Positions 12,345 to 20,997 of a stretch of DNA of 22,653 nt are shown piece after piece. This DNA comes from a virus. The translations under genes and the position numbers were made by a program. The stretch is taken from positions 1 to 22,653 of the IMG/VR virus record IMGVR_UViG_3300002145_000050; one strand, 5' to 3'. Within the stretch, counting starts at the first letter, position 1. Every line of letters starts with the position of its first letter. The notes under the pieces are model-generated. The model saw only the letters and a list, made by a program, of their open reading frames with translations, searched no databases and was not told where the DNA came from.

Positions 12345-13088
12345 TCACATGAATTTCTTAAAAAATTCTGTATACTTCTCTAGTGTAGTCCCCTCTAGAC
12401 CAGGAGCTGTATTGATTTCAAGTACATATGCCATTTCTTCCTTACTATTCCAGATTACATCAACAGCACCAAAATCAAGACCAATAGAATTAATGGAATC
12501 AATAGCACACTGTACCACCTTATCATCTGGGTCCACATCATTACGCTTATAAATAAATCCATTAGCATGATTACGAATTCTCCAATTGACTTCCCCAATC
12601 TCAATCTTTCTTGCCTTCTTTTGTATATCAAATACACCATCCTTACTACAATGGATTCTATATTCATCCTTCTTTTTAATGTACTTGGTATACAATGGGG
12701 CTTCAATCATATCAGCTTCATCATCAATCAATACAATACCTTTACCACTATGCCCATTCAAAATAGTACGGGCAACAGCAGTATCTCCATTACGAATCCA
12801 AGAGATGGCTTCTTCCTTATCTGTTGTAAATGGTGGAATAGATACACCAATCTTTAACATATTACTAAAACATGTTAACTTATTAGATGCTTCCTTAACA
12901 AGATTAGGAGGATTAATAACAAGACACTTCATTACCTCTACTGGTAGAGAAGAAGAACCCCAATTAATTACAGTCTTATTAGCATTCCCTCTAAACTTAC
13001 TACCCTCCACCTTAATCCTCTTAGCATCAAGAGAATGAGAAAGACCCTTAGCACTCTCACTATTAAAATTATAAGAATAAATAAACAT
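12345..13088 (-). CDS. ATP-grasp ligase (RimK-like)
   Basis: A 247-residue protein with the ATP-grasp fold: R107 and the glycine-rich loop GHSGKGI (112-118), the lysine/acidic strand YTKYIKKKDEYRIH (133-146), then GLDFGAVDVIW (203-213) and LEINTAPGL (223-231) bearing the Mg-binding D, E224 and N226. These enzymes activate a carboxylate as acylphosphate and join it to an amine, typically adding amino acids. The start overlaps the amidoligase stop as TAATG, so the two are translationally coupled. The substrate is unknown. The neighbouring GS-fold ligases and amidotransferases point to a multi-step amide or peptide synthesis. Confidence 0.88.
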   Translation of the reverse strand: MFIYSYNFNSESAKGLSHSLDAKRIKVEGSKFRGNANKTVINWGSSSLPVEVMKCLVINPPNLVKEASNKLTCFSNMLKIGVSIPPFTTDKEEAISWIRNGDTAVARTILNGHSGKGIVLIDDEADMIEAPLYTKYIKKKDEYRIHCSKDGVFDIQKKARKIEIGEVNWRIRNHANGFIYKRNDVDPDDKVVQCAIDSINSIGLDFGAVDVIWNSKEEMAYVLEINTAPGLEGTTLEKYTEFFKKFM

Positions 13089-14320
13089 TATTCTTCCCCT
13101 TCTTCCTCTATAATCTGAAATAATGGATTTCTATTTTGATAATGGATTTCTGGCACTACTTTATTTAATGGTGGCATAACCTTTACAGGTTCTTTTTCTA
13201 CCCTATCCATTCTCTTAATTAGATGTGGGTAATATTTATTTCGGAAGGAATAGAACTCTTCAGTAGGCATAATATTTTCTTCATTATTATGAGGATCATA
13301 AACATGAAGTTTCTTCTTGTTAGAATTATAATGAGAAATGATAAGAGTTTCAGGATGATTTAACAAAGTATTAAATTCAATTAGATAGAACACTCCATCA
13401 GATAATTGGATAGGAACAAACCCACCTTCATACTTCTCTTCTATTTTTTTTTTTACAATCAAATCCCTATATCTATTTAGATACCCCTCATATAGTTCAT
13501 CATTACAAATCATTGGATGAAAAGCGATAGGTTGAATCCTTCTCATTGATTCGTTGATTAGTCCACTCATATTAGGACATTGGAGATACTCAGAATATTC
13601 TCCCATAACATTATGAAAGAATCTTTCTGAACCAAGAGCAGACATGTTCATAAGGATATCTCTAGGAATTCTATATTCCATAGACTTATCCTTAATATGA
13701 AGAAGCATATTAACCCAAAGATTAATTAGTTCAACATCTAATATCCCCCTCATACTACGGAACTCTATAGAACCATACTTCTGGATAGCTGCCATGTTAA
13801 TAGCAGAGTATCTTAAATCCTTATCAATTTTTAAGATAATACCATTGTCTAATCCAGACTCTATTGTTTCAAGAAGGTATTGAGCATCTTTACTTCTCAA
13901 GCAAAATAGATTTCCTTCTCTCTCCTTACCACAGAACTTAACAAAAAGGTCTTCAAACATCTGATAGAGACAAAAGAAAGTAAACATTTGTCTTGGTGTT
14001 AATTTTTGACAATTGATATGGACATGGACACTTGTTCTGGGGGATAGATTATCTACATTAGAATTATTATATTCTAAAGCTTCTCTCAATTCTTCTAGAA
14101 CTTCTTTAATCTTTACCCTACTGACAGGCTTCTTAAGGACATATTCAGCATTGTCTTCTCCTCTAAGAGAGCCATCTGCTTCTACTCTCCAACTTCTTAG
14201 TCTACCTTTATAAAGATTATTTCCTTCTACTTCAATCTCAATACCCACTTCACCAGAAGTTTCCTTTAATGCCTTGAAATCTGCATTAAACATATCAAAA
14301 ATAGTTACAGTCTCAGACAT
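13088..14320 (-). CDS. Amidoligase (GS-fold COOH-NH2 ligase, Amidoligase_2-like)
   Basis: A 410-residue protein. The first 200 residues carry the amidoligase pattern of the glutamine-synthetase fold: GIEIEVE (26-32), RVEADGSLRGE then EYVL, SVHVHIN (H99, H101) and YGSIEFRSMRG (E186, R188). These correspond to the acidic metal/ATP ligands, the H-x-H pair and the E-x-R phosphate-binding pair. Residues about 300-410 add a strand-rich C-terminal domain (VPIQLSDGVFYLIEFNTLL, HYNSNKKKLHVYDPHNN) that I do not recognise. AGGAGG precedes the ATG. It overlaps the unknown 197-aa gene by 8 bases and the ATP-grasp gene by a TAATG. Predicted to form an isopeptide or amide bond, substrate unknown. Confidence 0.85.
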   Translation of the reverse strand: MSETVTIFDMFNADFKALKETSGEVGIEIEVEGNNLYKGRLRSWRVEADGSLRGEDNAEYVLKKPVSRVKIKEVLEELREALEYNNSNVDNLSPRTSVHVHINCQKLTPRQMFTFFCLYQMFEDLFVKFCGKEREGNLFCLRSKDAQYLLETIESGLDNGIILKIDKDLRYSAINMAAIQKYGSIEFRSMRGILDVELINLWVNMLLHIKDKSMEYRIPRDILMNMSALGSERFFHNVMGEYSEYLQCPNMSGLINESMRRIQPIAFHPMICNDELYEGYLNRYRDLIVKKKIEEKYEGGFVPIQLSDGVFYLIEFNTLLNHPETLIISHYNSNKKKLHVYDPHNNEENIMPTEEFYSFRNKYYPHLIKRMDRVEKEPVKVMPPLNKVVPEIHYQNRNPLFQIIEEEGEE

Positions 14321-14906
14321 TTAATTCCTCCTGAAGCATCTCTTTCAAATAAAAATAATCTTCATCAATATTAAATTTATTTTTTGAATTTAGTTTACCA
14401 ATTACTTTTCTACATTTAAATACTAAACTAAATTCTCTCTTATCAGTTCTTATAATAGAAAAATTTCTAGAGAAGGCGATATGACCTGGTCTAATTTTCA
14501 AATCTTCTAAGATAGATTCAACATCAGGATACTCTCCTCTGATAGTAGGAGCTAGTCCTTTTAAAGTAATAGTAGATTTCCTAAAGGAAAAACCTAATTG
14601 TTTTGTATAGAAATTACCAGTGTTTAATCCAACCTTCCACATTCTTGCTGGTGATCTACAAGAAAACAAACAATCATTTTGATGATTGATATTCCCCAAA
14701 GGTACTGGTTCTAGATTGAAATCCTCATTCAATCTCTTCCTAATTACCTCAGGATTAGGAGTATCTACATTAGGAAGATAGATAAATTCTAAGATATAGA
14801 AGCCATCTCTAGCACTATCAACTGATTGAATATAAATAGGTTCTTTCTTGTATCTGATAACACAATCTCTTAATCTAGATTGTGCATGATTTAAATCATA
14901 GAACAT
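14313..14906 (-). CDS. Conserved-looking unknown protein inside the amidoligase cluster
   Basis: The ATG at 14906 forms TGATG with the stop of the COOH-NH2 ligase (a TTG one codon upstream is less likely), giving 197 residues. The sequence opens MFYDLNHAQSRLRDCVIRYK and continues with strand-rich segments: GFYILEFIYLPN, CLFSCRSPARMWKVGLNTGNFY, LGFSFRKSTITLKGL. No known catalytic motif, signal peptide or membrane segment is visible. It is embedded between two amide-forming ligases and overlaps both, so it probably works with them as an accessory subunit, carrier or substrate. This is inference from position only. Confidence 0.7.
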   Translation of the reverse strand: MFYDLNHAQSRLRDCVIRYKKEPIYIQSVDSARDGFYILEFIYLPNVDTPNPEVIRKRLNEDFNLEPVPLGNINHQNDCLFSCRSPARMWKVGLNTGNFYTKQLGFSFRKSTITLKGLAPTIRGEYPDVESILEDLKIRPGHIAFSRNFSIIRTDKREFSLVFKCRKVIGKLNSKNKFNIDEDYFYLKEMLQEELNV

Positions 14907-15700
14907 CAATGAGCACCCACCATATTAATTCCAAGGATATCTACAATCTCCTTAGCTCTTTCCCTATTAGAAGAATTAATTACATCTTCTACATCAGGAA
15001 AGTCTCGACTGACAAGTCTACCACTAAACAGATTCTTAGCAGACTTAACAGCATAGTCATAGACAAACTTCATAAGCCCTTCTGATTGGAGCCATTTATT
15101 TGAAAGCACACGATACTCCATACCATACGGCTTAGGACGGAATGCTCCTGCCTTACCATACAACTCCCGTCGCTTATCGCAATCATCAAACAACAGGGAA
15201 GGAACACCAAGAAACACATCCATCTGACGTGCCAAAAAAGCGCATTCAATTAAATGATCTTCATCCCTAACATCTGCATTATTGGTCCATCCAACATGGA
15301 CGTGTCCGGCCGCAGTACGGAGAGGAGTATCTCCGCAAGGAGGAGGGTTATAAGAGATAGTATAAGCATTGAAGTCAGAATCACAACCAAGCATAGTAGC
15401 TTCTCTGGGTTGGACATTCATAATCTCCTCAGGAAATTCAACAGCAGCCTCGATAAGAAGATCATGATTGGGAATCATCTTTTTCATTTCTTCAATGACA
15501 GTGTTGATATTAAAAATGAATTCATTACGAGTCTTAGCTGGATTAATATTAAACTCCAATGCCATTCCATCAACCTGAACAGCACCCTTATTAACAGGAT
15601 GAGGCTCTTGCTTTGTACCAGGAATCAGATTGTATCCAGAAACAAGAGCACCACCAGAGGTAACAAAAACTTCAGGGTCAGCACCAATAAGAATCTGCAT
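14906..15700 (-). CDS. COOH-NH2 ligase type 2 (phiEco32-like family)
   Basis: A 264-residue second GS-fold amidoligase, distinct from the one downstream. IGADPEVFV opens the fold. VQVDGMALEFNINPA (41-55) supplies acidic ligands, AGHVHVGW (H133, H135) the H-x-H pair, and YGKAGAFRPKPYGMEYRVLSN (181-201) the E195-x-R197 pair. This matches the family named after a phiEco32 protein. GGAGAATTAA precedes the ATG, one base after the class II amidotransferase stop. It should catalyse ATP-dependent amide formation between a carboxylate and an amine. The direct upstream amidotransferase could provide ammonia, so one product may be a primary amide. Confidence 0.88.
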   Translation of the reverse strand: MQILIGADPEVFVTSGGALVSGYNLIPGTKQEPHPVNKGAVQVDGMALEFNINPAKTRNEFIFNINTVIEEMKKMIPNHDLLIEAAVEFPEEIMNVQPREATMLGCDSDFNAYTISYNPPPCGDTPLRTAAGHVHVGWTNNADVRDEDHLIECAFLARQMDVFLGVPSLLFDDCDKRRELYGKAGAFRPKPYGMEYRVLSNKWLQSEGLMKFVYDYAVKSAKNLFSGRLVSRDFPDVEDVINSSNRERAKEIVDILGINMVGAH

Positions 15701-15701
15701 T

Positions 15702-17030
15702 TTAATTCTCCAAGAGTTGAATAGCTTCGTTAACTGTCATTGTATCCCTTCCACTATCAAAAGTGGACACGCAATCACCACATATCATAGAGTTTCTTTT
15801 ACCAAATACAGCACCTAAATCTTTAAAGCTTGCCTTAGAAGAGCACCATCCACATTCTTTAATCCTATTATAAAATTCATCTTCCTTTAAAGCCACCCCA
15901 TCAACAATACGAGTAGCATATTGTGGAACAACAATATCAATATCTTTATCAGTCATAAAAAGATATTGTCTTCCATCTGCAAGTAATGTAATGGAATACT
16001 TACCATTAAATCGAACGATATTAAAAGTTTCAAAATGCTTCAATAACAAGTAAGGATCATCAGAAGCAGTAGATACTGTTAATTGAAGACCATCACCAGT
16101 ACAAGAAAACTTATGTCTAACTACCTCTTGAGTCTTAGTATTATAGACAGCAGTATGAGAGATTGGTGTAAAAGAACCCTTCAATTCTTTACCATCTAGT
16201 GGTAATTGTAGATTCTTAGAACCAGAACCAATGCTTCTTACCGTTCCTTGAGAAAAAGGGGCATTGTTATTTTGACTACCTCCATAAGTATAAGGAGGAT
16301 TATACGGCTTATAGACTACAGGAGGGGGTGGAACAAATTCCTTTACCATTCTTCCAGATTTAGAAATCTTATTAGTAACCTTATCATATTGAATAGTAAG
16401 AAGTTTATTTTCATTTAGAGAATAAATAGGACCATGTTTCAAATCCTCTCTCCGAAGCATAGCCTCAATAATCCAAGGCTCAGAAGCCCAGAACAATCCG
16501 CTATCATCCTTTAGTTGGGAATAGAATAGAGGACGTTCTTTGTTTCTAATAAAGTTCAAGCTACCCTCTTTCAAATTATAAAACACGAGAGCAGCAGCAC
16601 CTTCAAGCATCCCCCATACCTTATCAATGCCATGTTTATCTATATTAAAGATGAGGGTTTCACTATCAGTATCAAAATCTCTTTCACTATCATACTTATA
16701 TTTGTTTCGGATAGTTCCATTATGACATCCCAAAATTTCACCATGAATAAAGGGATGTGCATTAGAGGAATTAACCTTACCTACTGTGGCATATCTATTA
16801 TGTCCGATATAACATTCATAATAGAGGGAGCTAGCCCTCTTCCATTTAGGATTATCTAAAAGATCATCTGGCAAAACAGGAAGCTTAACCAAATCCCATG
16901 CTCCATTTGAGCTAGCCATTCCAACACCAGTAGAATGTGGTCCTCTAATAACATCTATTCTAAGCATGTTCTTAAAAACACTCTCCAATTTAATACCATG
17001 CTTACCGATGTATCCAACCAACCCACACAT
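15702..17030 (-). CDS. Class II glutamine amidotransferase with C-terminal zinc ribbon
   Basis: A 442-residue protein. The Ntn-hydrolase glutaminase domain starts MCGLVGYIG, with Cys2 as nucleophile after Met removal. IGHNRYATVG (R79), AHPF, CHNGTI (N104-G105 oxyanion) and DTDSE complete the glutamine site, so it should release ammonia from glutamine. It has no synthase domain of asparagine synthetase or GlmS type. Instead the C-terminal part ends with C393-GW-C396 and C417-GD-C420, a probable zinc ribbon. A middle Pro-rich linker (VPPPPVVYKPYNPPYTYGG) separates the domains. AGGAG precedes the ATG. Ammonia acceptors are probably the neighbouring ligases. Confidence 0.88.
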   Translation of the reverse strand: MCGLVGYIGKHGIKLESVFKNMLRIDVIRGPHSTGVGMASSNGAWDLVKLPVLPDDLLDNPKWKRASSLYYECYIGHNRYATVGKVNSSNAHPFIHGEILGCHNGTIRNKYKYDSERDFDTDSETLIFNIDKHGIDKVWGMLEGAAALVFYNLKEGSLNFIRNKERPLFYSQLKDDSGLFWASEPWIIEAMLRREDLKHGPIYSLNENKLLTIQYDKVTNKISKSGRMVKEFVPPPPVVYKPYNPPYTYGGSQNNNAPFSQGTVRSIGSGSKNLQLPLDGKELKGSFTPISHTAVYNTKTQEVVRHKFSCTGDGLQLTVSTASDDPYLLLKHFETFNIVRFNGKYSITLLADGRQYLFMTDKDIDIVVPQYATRIVDGVALKEDEFYNRIKECGWCSSKASFKDLGAVFGKRNSMICGDCVSTFDSGRDTMTVNEAIQLLEN

Positions 17031-17042
17031 AATAAACTCCTA

Positions 17043-17672
17043 TTACGGAATGAGACAATGTTCGATGAGATGAAAGTAGTAGTCAGTACATTCTTTTACA
17101 TTATTAAATTCTGGATGTGGTTGAAAACAGAGACTCTCAGTAGCTGGGTAAAACAACACTTCATGGTCTATGCATTCAACAACAGAATGAATTTCATTAC
17201 CATTCATATGTTGCTTTGTCTTAGAAATATTATCAGCAACTGCAATAACTTCTGCTGAAGGACTTGGTCTCATCATCTGATGATGGGTAGAAGATACTTG
17301 AATCCTCTTATCGGAACGTAGATCAATGATCTCATGAGTCCCACCAATAGCATGATTAAAGACATGTTGCCACATCTTACCACCATTCATGACATTCAAG
17401 AACTGTCCACCCCTACAGATACCAGCCATAGGAATTAGATTATCATTCCCATAATCAAAGAATGTCTTTTCCTTCTTATCCCTATCCCTCCACACTGAAG
17501 CTTTAGGATGTTGTTGTTCCCCATACAACTCAGGGGATACATCACTACCACCAGTGAACTGGATAAGAGATGCTTGATTGATGTCTTGTGTTACTCCCCA
17601 CCCATACCTCATAAACATCTGACCATATTCACATAGGCTACCATGTTGTCCAACAATATATACATATCTCAT
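17043..17672 (-). CDS. Class I glutamine amidotransferase-like / peptidase C26 (PuuD-type)
   Basis: A 209-residue protein. The nucleophile elbow GICRGGQ gives C86, and CFQPHPEF gives H186 and E188, a complete Cys-His-Glu triad. The N-terminal FTGGSDVSPELYGE and STHHQMM segments resemble gamma-glutamyl hydrolases (PuuD/C26) more than ammonia-channelling GATases. It may therefore cleave, or transfer, gamma-glutamyl amides made by the adjacent ligases. ATGA overlap with the preceding 283-aa gene indicates coupled translation, and the class II amidotransferase follows 12 bases later. The distinction between hydrolase and amidotransferase is not decided by the sequence. Confidence 0.85.
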   Translation of the reverse strand: MRYVYIVGQHGSLCEYGQMFMRYGWGVTQDINQASLIQFTGGSDVSPELYGEQQHPKASVWRDRDKKEKTFFDYGNDNLIPMAGICRGGQFLNVMNGGKMWQHVFNHAIGGTHEIIDLRSDKRIQVSSTHHQMMRPSPSAEVIAVADNISKTKQHMNGNEIHSVVECIDHEVLFYPATESLCFQPHPEFNNVKECTDYYFHLIEHCLIP

Positions 17673-18520
17673 TTCATTTTCTCCTCTCTGAACTTATTAA
17701 AAAATGAAACAAGTTCATTAACATTATTATCACAGAAGAAGTTTAATTCAGGACCATCATAATATTTATTTCTTGGCTTTTTAATTTTAGACTCAGGAAA
17801 TTTTATATTACTCTGCTCTCCTCCCCAATGAAAACCCTTCTCTCCACTGAAAAGAACCTGTATCCCATTATAATTAGTACATTCTCTCATTGGTATAAGA
17901 TCATCAAGAATGGGTTTATTATCAAACCATCTCTTGAATATTCTCTTATCCCTCCATCGTCCAACATCTAATGCCATATGATTAGAATTATATGGGCATC
18001 TATTAGTAACTTGCCAACCTTCTCTACTTTCTCTAAGGTAATAGGAAATCAGATAAGCAACATCAGGATGCATACCATTATCAACCAACCAAGTCCAACA
18101 CTTAACCTTCTCACTCTGCTCATCACACTCTCTAGCTACACTCAATGCTCCAACAATATATTGGGGAGAGTGAGAGACATCCATAATCATACCAGTATCA
18201 TAGTATGAGACATTAGGGATAGTAATGAATGCCTTAGAAAAGGGGCTCCAATAGATCAACCAATTAAGAAACTTCTCTGTGTCTTTACTATTATTATAGC
18301 GAGGGTTGAAAGTAGAAAGGAAATAATTGATAGGCATTTTATCCTTAGGTGTTTGTCTTATCATGGCATAACATACAAAGTTACCATAATAATTAAAAGA
18401 ATTATCCTTTCCATATATGGCACCATAAGTATTTACACCATCTTTGCCTTTATTATTCATATCTTTTAAAAACTTAAAACAAACTTCTTTATCCTTCTCA
18501 GGGATATCATTAATATCCAT
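17669..18520 (-). CDS. Unknown protein, 283 aa, upstream of the amidotransferases
   Basis: A hydrophilic 283-residue protein rich in aromatic residues (FLNWLIYWSPFSKAF, FKRWFDNKP, GFHWGGEQ) and with several cysteines. A notable block is REGWQVTNRCPYNSNHMALD (about residues 168-187). No membrane segment, signal peptide or known motif was found. It overlaps the gene on each side (4 and 11 bases), so it belongs to the same translational unit as the class I amidotransferase and could be a substrate-binding or regulatory partner. I do not recognise the family. Confidence 0.68.
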   Translation of the reverse strand: MDINDIPEKDKEVCFKFLKDMNNKGKDGVNTYGAIYGKDNSFNYYGNFVCYAMIRQTPKDKMPINYFLSTFNPRYNNSKDTEKFLNWLIYWSPFSKAFITIPNVSYYDTGMIMDVSHSPQYIVGALSVARECDEQSEKVKCWTWLVDNGMHPDVAYLISYYLRESREGWQVTNRCPYNSNHMALDVGRWRDKRIFKRWFDNKPILDDLIPMRECTNYNGIQVLFSGEKGFHWGGEQSNIKFPESKIKKPRNKYYDGPELNFFCDNNVNELVSFFNKFREEKMK

Positions 18521-18827
18521 AAGTCTTCTCCATATACCTCTTTACTACATCAAGAGAAGAAAGATTACCACCATCCCATCCGTCTTCCATCTCATAATAT
18601 CCCTTACTTAATAGGTGAATAAACTTATCACCCTTATCTGTATTAACATAGAACATCCATCCATTACTAGTCTTATAGTGTGAATAAACTTGATTGATTG
18701 AAAGGGAAGAACATGCCTTCCTCATCTGCTGAGAGAGAAAGATATTATTCTTCTTACAATAGGTAAACAATACATCCATGAGATGCCTCTGTGAGTGTGT
18801 AGGAGAGGCAAGGAGAGGGGTTAACAT
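18510..18827 (-). CDS. Unknown protein, 105 aa
   Basis: A 105-residue protein first in the run before the tRNA genes. The ATG at 18827 has only a weak AAGG. An alternative ATG at 18779 (MDVLFTYCKK, 89 aa) has AGAGG at 6-base spacing and may be the true start. The C-terminal half (NGWMFYVNTDKGDKFIHLL, then YYEMEDGWDGGNLSSLD) is aromatic and acidic. It overlaps the 283-aa gene by 11 bases. No motif or family is recognised. Confidence 0.6.
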   Translation of the reverse strand: MLTPLLASPTHSQRHLMDVLFTYCKKNNIFLSQQMRKACSSLSINQVYSHYKTSNGWMFYVNTDKGDKFIHLLSKGYYEMEDGWDGGNLSSLDVVKRYMEKTYGY

Positions 18828-18860: not shown

Positions 18861-18937
18861 TGGTGCCCCCTGAAGGACTCGAACCTTCGACCTACAGATT
18901 AGAAGTCTGTTGCTCTATCCATCTGAGCTAAGGAGGC
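18861..18937 (-). tRNA. tRNA-Arg (anticodon UCU)
   Basis: The minus strand folds as a complete cloverleaf: acceptor GCCTCCT pairing with AGGGGGC, D arm GCTC/GAGC, anticodon stem ACAGA/TCTGT with loop CTTCTAA (anticodon TCT), T arm GAAGG-TTCGAGT-CCTTC, discriminator A and encoded CCA. It reads AGA/AGG codons, which are frequent in the AT-rich phage genes here. Confidence 0.95.
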
Positions 18938-18947
18938 ATAAGAAAAT

Positions 18948-19031
18948 TGGTGCGGACGAAGGGACTCGAACCCATACACCATAAGGCAGGAGATTTTAAG
19001 TCTCCCATGTCTACCATTCCATCACGTCCGC
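18948..19031 (-). tRNA. tRNA-Leu (anticodon UAA)
   Basis: A class II tRNA on the minus strand: acceptor GCGGACG pairing with CGTCCGC, anticodon stem GGAGA/TCTCC with loop CTTAAAA (anticodon TAA), a long variable arm (about TGCCTTATGGTGT), T loop TTCGAGT, discriminator A and encoded CCA. The outer T-stem has one apparent mismatch. It reads TTA codons and lies 10 bases from tRNA-Arg, so both probably come from one transcript. Confidence 0.92.
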
Positions 19032-20202: not shown

Positions 20203-20997
20203 TTACCAATACACCCAGGCATCCCCATACACCCTGGCATTCCCAAACACCATAGCATCCCCATACACCATGGCATCCCCAAACACCCTGGCATTCCCAG
20301 ACACCCAGGCATTATCAGACACCCTGGCATTCCCATACACCTTGGCATTCAGATACACCCTAGCATTCCCATACACCCAGGCATTCCCATACACCTTGGC
20401 ATTCTCAGACACCCTGGCATTCTCAGACACCCTGGCATTCCCAGACACCTTAGCATCCCCAGACACCCTGGCATTATCAAACACCCTGGCATTATCATAC
20501 ACCTTGGCATTCCCAGACACCTTGGCATTCCCATACACACTGGCATCCCCAAACACCCTGGCATTATCAGACACCCAGTCATCCCCATACACCCTGGCAT
20601 TCCCAAATACCCTGGCATCCCCATACACCCTGGCATCCCCAAACACCCTGGCATTATCAGACACCCAGGCATTATCAGACACCCTGGCATTCCCATATAC
20701 CTTGGCATTCAAATACACCCTGGCATTATCAGACACCCAGGCATCCCCATACACCTTGGCATTCTCAGACACCCTGGCATCCCCAGACACCCTGGCATCC
20801 CCATACACTTTGGCATTATTAGACACCCAGGCATCCCCATACACCTTGGCATTCTCAGACACCCTGGCATTATCAGACACAGAAGAAGTATCGGCAACCC
20901 AACCACCACCATTGGAATGCCTATGAGCAGGAACAGGTCCATTACCGTCCTCGAAATCAAACATATTTTTCTGCACAGGCTTAGTTAGATCAACCAT
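20203..20997 (-). CDS. Hexapeptide-repeat (left-handed beta-helix) protein
   Basis: A 264-residue protein. The N-terminal cap (HRHSNGGGWVADTSS, about 25-39) is a motif I associate with phage and bacterial hexapeptide-repeat proteins. From V40 to residue 261 there are 37 consecutive hexapeptides of the form V-[SYF]-[DEGN]-[ND]-A-[RKW], such as VSDNAR, VYGDAW, VFGNAR, then VYW. Each triple of hexapeptides would make one coil of a left-handed beta-helix, giving about 12 coils. No acyltransferase loop or catalytic histidine interrupts the repeats, so it is probably a structural or binding solenoid rather than an enzyme. GAGGAG sits 6 bases before the ATG. The role is unknown. Confidence 0.85.
   Translation of the reverse strand: MVDLTKPVQKNMFDFEDGNGPVPAHRHSNGGGWVADTSSVSDNARVSENAKVYGDAWVSNNAKVYGDARVSGDARVSENAKVYGDAWVSDNARVYLNAKVYGNARVSDNAWVSDNARVFGDARVYGDARVFGNARVYGDDWVSDNARVFGDASVYGNAKVSGNAKVYDNARVFDNARVSGDAKVSGNARVSENARVSENAKVYGNAWVYGNARVYLNAKVYGNARVSDNAWVSGNARVFGDAMVYGDAMVFGNARVYGDAWVYW
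20206..20881 (-). repeat. 18-bp tandem repeat array encoding hexapeptides
   Basis: About 37 tandem copies of an 18-bp unit, plus-strand consensus near CCATACACCCTGGCATTC with degenerate positions. The unit length equals six codons, so copy-number change keeps the frame. Stop codons are lacking in several frames because of the repeat, which makes long false ORFs on both strands. Confidence 0.9.

Follow-up and report, generated by a model that had tools for sequence, protein, structure and literature searches.

A seven-gene amide-ligation cluster in a virus genome fragment

The IMG/VR virus record IMGVR_UViG_3300002145_000050 is a 22.6 kb fragment (22,653 nucleotides, analyzed in full and referred to here as the window) whose minus strand carries a compact cluster of genes predicted to act in amide-bond synthesis. 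An earlier note on this DNA had described six contiguous genes separated by gaps or overlaps of 1-12 bases, and all six open reading frames (ORFs) are present as described, with junctions that consist, in coordinate order, of overlaps of 1, 8 and 4 bases followed by gaps of 1 and 12 bases (Table 1). Pfam and PHROG profile searches, in which bit scores were compared with curated cut-offs, placed five of the six products in the enzyme families that the note had named: an ATP-grasp ligase, an Amidoligase_2 and a COOH-NH2 ligase type 2, both of the GS fold, a class II glutamine amidotransferase (GATase II) and a Peptidase C26-family protein. The sixth product, of 198 amino acids, belongs to a PHROG family of unknown function. 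The catalytic residues that had been read as intact are near-invariant among the 75-97 homologues aligned for each family, and chance is excluded as the origin of the cluster's families and conserved residues. It is the extent of the cluster that has to be revised, as it comprises at least seven genes and also includes an adjacent ORF encoding a 283-amino-acid protein. No long hydrophobic segment occurs in any of the seven proteins, and the pathway that they encode is therefore predicted to be cytoplasmic. A search of the seven against the defence proteins of PADLOC-DB gave no match at E 0.01.

Table 1. Features of the cluster and its surroundings in the window (aa, amino acids).
Feature	Position	Strand	Length	Profile match or remark
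ATP-grasp ligase, RimK/MptN-like glutamate ligase branch	12345-13088	-	247 aa	phrog_2599, E=2.4e-87
Amidoligase_2, GS-fold amide ligase with hypervariable C-terminal tail	13088-14320	-	410 aa	PF12224, 45.3 bits (cut-off 22)
C-terminal tail of Amidoligase_2 (residues 285-410)	13088-13468	-	126 aa	
Conserved partner without recognisable catalytic residues	14313-14909	-	198 aa	phrog_11055, E=4e-27
COOH-NH2 ligase type 2 (phiEco32 family), GS-fold	14906-15700	-	264 aa	PF14395, 34 bits (cut-off 25); phrog_3815, E=1.5e-81
Class II glutamine amidotransferase (Cys2)	15702-17030	-	442 aa	GATase_6, 58.7 bits (cut-off 27)
Zinc-ribbon-like CxxC...CxxC at the GATase II C-terminus	15702-15857	-		
Peptidase C26-family gamma-glutamyl hydrolase (predicted)	17043-17672	-	209 aa	PF07722, 61.7 bits (cut-off 20.5)
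Seventh module gene, Cys50/Arg130 protein	17669-18520	-	283 aa	4-base overlap with the C26 gene
ORF overlapping the seventh gene	18510-18827	-	105 aa	
tRNA genes Arg(tct) and Leu(taa)	18861-19031	-		
Repeat-containing ORF	20203-20997	-	264 aa	phrog_7964 and phrog_5070, both of unknown function

The cluster is a copy of a described phage module

The cluster in the window is a copy of the phiEco32-type amide-ligation module, which has already been described and is not new. Two published accounts (PMC5498523 and PMC11945000, citing Iyer 2009 and Hardies 2013) call it the peptidoglycan modification cassette or module of phiEco32, LUZ24, CW02 and RIO-1, and its proposed role in relatives also appears in PMC10580990. 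We took as core genes those for the ATP-grasp ligase, Amidoligase_2, COOH-NH2 ligase type 2, GATase II and the small 198-amino-acid protein. All five are contiguous in the window, the same set is found in PA11, CW02, CVT22 and Bjorn and is recognisable from gene positions in phiEco32 and LUZ24, and the module is also carried by RIO-1, Slicky01, GAP52, Proteus phage 3H10_20 and Aeromonas phage LAh_9.

To gauge its distribution, we searched with the COOH-NH2 ligase. A tblastn search found matches in 317 of 50,697 phage records, every one below 60% identity, and an alignment query retrieved 450 IMG/VR contigs together with 10 contigs in bacterial genome bins. Eighty of the 450 IMG/VR contigs were kept, and these, the bacterial-bin contigs and reference phages were scanned for synteny using profiles built in this analysis. 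The scan, a check that the earlier note had proposed, recovered the same genes in a nearly fixed order: GATase II is followed by the COOH-NH2 ligase in 95 cases, the ligase by the 198-amino-acid protein in 92, that protein by Amidoligase_2 in 92 and Amidoligase_2 by the ATP-grasp ligase in 72, with the 283-amino-acid protein preceding C26 in 72. The five core genes are complete in 46 of 50 large records; in three of the exceptions the 198-amino-acid protein is too diverged for its profile, and in the fourth the contig ends. All 10 bacterial loci come from metagenome-assembled genomes, several of them on phage-sized contigs, and they therefore offer no guide in the form of a cellular pathway whose product is known.

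The closest arrangement is that of the Zobellviridae. Pseudomonas phage PA11 has the order C26, GATase II, COOH-NH2 ligase, unknown protein, Amidoligase_2 and ATP-grasp, likewise ahead of genes for a primase-helicase, a sigma factor and a polymerase, and PA11, CW02 and CVT22 all agree with the window in how the module genes and the replication genes behind them are ordered. Nevertheless, identity between these three phages and the window is limited to 43-48% for the COOH-NH2 ligase and 32-42% for Amidoligase_2, and CVT22 and CW02 differ further in having small ORFs inserted among the module genes. In phiEco32 and LUZ24, by contrast, GATase II comes after Amidoligase_2, and a gamma-glutamyl cyclotransferase (GGCT) takes the place of C26. 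Two features of the window set it apart from the module of phiEco32, LUZ24 and PA11 as published: its Amidoligase_2 has a 126-residue tail without relatives, and the gene for the invariant-cysteine protein is not listed as a component in the parts of the published accounts available to us.

An invariant-cysteine protein is a sixth core component

This protein constitutes a sixth core component of the module, present in one or two copies. A profile of the 283-amino-acid protein encoded in the window matches 78 related loci; in 72 of these C26 is the next module gene, closely spaced in 70 of the 72. When we considered the loci with enough upstream sequence, 55 had both the 283-amino-acid gene and C26, five had the former alone, two had C26 alone and four had neither. 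Conservation of Cys50 and Arg130 is complete or almost complete across the family, and His181 is conserved at 84-93%.

An AlphaFold2 model of the protein (mean pLDDT 81.5) had no believable match among solved structures in the PDB, with a best Foldseek E of 0.86 at a TM-score of about 0.12 and a best VIA Z of 2.6 over 93 residues; a beta-lactamase assignment, which appeared as scattered rows among these non-significant matches, was rejected. Comparison of the predicted fold with the predicted viral structures of BFVD gave 18 matches followed by a steep drop. Those with names come from CVT22, CW02, RIO-1, GAP52, Aeromonas phages LAh_6, LAh_8 and 4_4572 and Proteus phage 3H10_20, and all named confident matches belong to phage groups that carry the module. 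Judged by position and length, the matching genes (290 amino acids in GAP52 and 304 in 3H10_20, for example) lie directly upstream of the module in the phages examined. In CW02 the match, gp70 (503 amino acids), is at the end of the record and C26 at the start of the same record. LAh_9 has two tandem genes upstream of the module, with lengths as in the LAh_6 and LAh_8 matches. The second tandem gene in phiEco32, LUZ24, GAP52, 3H10_20 and LAh_9 aligns with the 283-amino-acid family (hhalign probability 87%, E 4e-6). A CFG motif is invariant in this second gene, and the first tandem gene has an invariant cysteine as well.

Our tentative and rather doubtful proposal for its function is that the cysteine protein, encoded by one gene in the relatives of the window and by two tandem genes in the same position in phiEco32, LUZ24 and the Grimontviridae phages, is a new class of enzyme or carrier that works with the three ligases, in a six-component core plus a hydrolase, so that a host molecule receives a gamma-glutamyl-linked modification. 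To our knowledge, such a chemistry would have no counterpart in cellular organisms.

The ligases retain conserved active sites

The ATP-grasp protein scores 19.6 bits against the Pfam RimK family (PF08443), slightly below the 21-bit cut-off. We kept the assignment despite this score because of the strong PHROG match and the conserved K, E, D and ExN residues: K70, E142, R144, K158, D210, E224 and N226 are present in 98-100% of 89 aligned rows. Its nearest NCBIfam models, MptN (56 bits) and the RimK family (44 bits), both fall under their own cut-offs, and this comparison places it closest to glutamate ligases of the RimK/MptN/peptide-maturase branch. Although phrog_2599 carries the name S6 glutaminyl transferase, the equivalog model for the ribosomal protein S6-glutamate ligase RimK (NF007764) gives just 18.4 bits, where its cut-off is 331. 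Nine loci (L022, L026, L028, L030, L032, L034, L041, L044 and L048) contain two diverged ATP-grasp genes that are 22-34% alike, one ahead of GATase II and the other after Amidoligase_2, and in Slicky01-type phages (L003:20477-22360, L071 and L078) the ATP-grasp ligase is longer by about 350 unassigned residues.

Both GS-fold ligases are similarly conserved. In Amidoligase_2, the ExExE residues E28, E30 and E32 together with H99, H101, R134, E186 and R188 are found at 97-100%, and D8, E10, E49, H133, H135, E195 and R197 of the COOH-NH2 ligase are present in all 97 rows. The C-terminal tail of Amidoligase_2 had no match in phages, and searches of the PDB and PHROGs gave chance-level hits. Tail length varies from 0 to 307 amino acids among homologues, and it is possible that this variable region is a targeting part. 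Extensions of the other module proteins matched no Pfam family.

An amidotransferase, a putative hydrolase and a small-barrel partner

The catalytic cysteine of GATase II (C2) is present in 88 of 95 rows, six of the remainder having gaps there, and in its C-terminal zinc-ribbon-like motif C393, C396 and C417 are present in 89 of 95 rows, with C420 also present in the window. The PHROG name of this protein is GlmS, yet the GlmS equivalog scores 40.1 bits against a cut-off of 418 and its match covers residues 2-126 only. A weak match to the ergothioneine enzyme EgtC was also found. The amidotransferase could supply a ligase with ammonia or, in the manner of EgtC, cleave a gamma-glutamyl group.

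The earlier note had counted the C26 protein as a second amidotransferase (a C26-like GATase I), but a gamma-glutamyl hydrolase is the better reading. Like known C26 gamma-glutamyl hydrolases, the protein matches the Pfam C26 profile, has relatives of known structure (PDB 3fij and 7d4r) and contains the catalytic triad Cys86-His186-Glu188 (98%, 100% and 100% conserved). The cluster probably has one amidotransferase, not two, because the nearest curated models of C26 are hydrolases of gamma-glutamyl amides, among them those of gamma-glutamyl-CDP-amidate and gamma-glutamyl-GABA. However, its scores lie far under both equivalog cut-offs (NF045546, 26.5 against 250 bits; NF008471, 25.1 against 266 bits), and no substrate assignment follows from them.

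For the 198-amino-acid protein, which has no Pfam family, an AlphaFold2 model (mean pLDDT 95) predicts an N-terminal SH3/Tudor-like small beta-barrel. Its best VIA structural match is weak (Z 6.1 over 60 residues), and the matches include domain I of EF-P and Tudor-like barrels. G72 is the sole invariant residue, with R85, R89, G94 and G171 at 92-97%. Based on this model, the protein is probably an adaptor or scaffold; a role as an EF-P-like carrier or target mimic was set aside, given that it has no invariant modifiable residue. PDB profile hits of this protein and of the 283-amino-acid protein, to fragments of designed repeat proteins and of phosphotriesterases, were at chance level and were rejected.

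Two unrelated hydrolase families alternate in module-bearing records

The C26 and GGCT families both cleave gamma-glutamyl bonds and have unrelated folds. Across the 50 large module-bearing records, C26 occurs in 41 and GGCT in 18: 31 have C26 only, eight GGCT only, ten both and one neither. Eight of the nine records lacking C26 thus have GGCT, and the ninth is a contig with the module at its end. Among phage records at large, GGCT-like matches are rare, being found in 143 of 50,697, mostly in Pseudomonas phages. Because 49 of the 50 relatives, like the window with its C26 gene, encode one or both of these gamma-glutamyl-cleaving enzymes, it is probable that a gamma-glutamyl bond is formed and subsequently cleaved. 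The apparent substitution of one fold for an unrelated one is the best clue to the chemistry that the module would perform. An amide- or gamma-glutamyl-linked product, as the earlier note had put forward, is supported by these data, and the either-or pattern of the two hydrolases strengthens its gamma-glutamyl part.

Genomic surroundings of the cluster

The genes downstream of the cluster, which share its strand, begin with those for a primase-helicase and a sigma factor and a 628-amino-acid ORF at the place where PA11 has its DNA polymerase. These are followed by genes for a conserved protein, ThyX, a 5'-3' exonuclease, a dCMP deaminase and an HNH protein, and the downstream set also has a metallophosphatase, a nucleotide pyrophosphohydrolase and a ribonucleotide reductase. 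Two tRNA genes lie directly upstream of the cluster. The 105-amino-acid ORF that overlaps the seventh gene has a relative only in the nearest locus (L013). Another ORF of the window encodes NARVxGNAxV hexapeptide-like repeats in an 18-base tandem array of 37 copies.

A proposed pathway and its alternatives

Two GS-fold ligases, a RimK/MptN-like ATP-grasp ligase, a GATase II, a C26 hydrolase, a small-barrel accessory protein and an invariant-cysteine protein are thus inherited together. By analogy with their families, the three ligases would activate carboxylates with ATP and join them to amines, namely glutamate and/or glutamine-derived ammonia, on an acceptor in the cytoplasm, and at least one gamma-glutamyl linkage would result. 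C26, or in other phages GGCT or both, would later cut a gamma-glutamyl bond in a trimming or recycling step. That the genes form a coherent pathway yielding a gamma-glutamyl or amide product we consider likely. The weakest step is the acceptor, which, as earlier proposed for relatives, would be the peptide of a peptidoglycan precursor, such that the wall of the infected cell would be altered in a way that would serve superinfection exclusion or preparation for lysis. Peptidoglycan is the leading guess, taken from the published proposal, and we regard it as plausible at rather less than even chances; the broader reading, a pathway for which peptidoglycan is only the most likely acceptor, we favor somewhat.

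Several observations weigh against this reading. The accessible literature reports a measured product for none of the relatives that we found in it, and the sequence holds nothing that identifies the acceptor. Both hydrolase families include members that act on free metabolites and so do not single out peptidoglycan. In addition, the association between C26 and GGCT (Fisher p=0.0006) treats records as independent and ignores their kinship. Parsimony on the COOH-NH2 ligase tree requires five changes for the GGCT-only state, only one of which is forced by well-supported branches, and a kinship-aware paired sign test was underpowered, with only one supported pair. Lastly, the absence of GGCT from the window, a fragment of 22.6 kb, is uninformative.

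An unlikely alternative to a modified cell wall is that the product is a free small gamma-glutamyl metabolite, such as a gamma-glutamyl-amine or short peptide, which would be recycled by C26 or GGCT and would serve as a signal, as a protectant or to inhibit some process of the host or of a rival phage. These two families mostly act on small gamma-glutamyl compounds, and the curated models nearest to C26 have such substrates; however, the module has no exporter, and the small-barrel partner and variable Amidoligase_2 tail hint weakly at a larger partner. We think it less likely again that a host or phage protein is modified, for example by glutamyl addition that favors phage takeover. RimK adds glutamyl residues to ribosomal protein S6, and both the branch to which the ATP-grasp ligase belongs and its PHROG name fit such a role, as does the weak structural similarity of the 198-amino-acid partner to EF-P domain I and Tudor-like barrels. 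Yet the RimK equivalog score is far too low, the partner lacks an invariant Lys, Glu or Ser to serve as the modified residue, and one such change would hardly require two GS-fold ligases and a gamma-glutamyl hydrolase.

Least likely, and in our view very improbable, is a nucleotide or DNA modification in which an amide-linked group shields phage DNA from restriction. The module does sit amid replication genes, and phages of the Gordonclarkvirinae, to which the module-bearing phiEco32 belongs, withstand restriction-modification systems for reasons not yet known (PMC11990801). The authors of the BASEL study nonetheless favor a dCTP deaminase and a nucleotidyltransferase as the explanation (PMC11990801), the DNA of the module-bearing, LUZ24-like phage tf is cut by RsaI, HpaI, EcoRV, SmaI and HaeIII (PMC3517423), and no base-modifying gene was recognised in the window, which does have ThyX, a dCMP deaminase and a ribonucleotide reductase.

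Returning to the pathway with peptidoglycan as its most likely acceptor, what the present analysis adds to the known module is the overlooked cysteine-protein component and the exchange between C26 and GGCT, which make the question of the product more directly testable. The cysteine protein enlarges the gene set for deletion or reconstitution, and the availability of Kuraviruses able to grow on a derivative of E. coli K-12, restored for O16, makes testing of the module practical (PMC11990801). In the BASEL collection, Bas92 carries the COOH-NH2 ligase. The either-or pattern of C26 and GGCT narrows the search for the product to a gamma-glutamyl bond, in a pathway whose genes are retained with intact active sites by hundreds of phages of Pseudomonas, Escherichia, Vibrio, Klebsiella, Proteus, Aeromonas and others.

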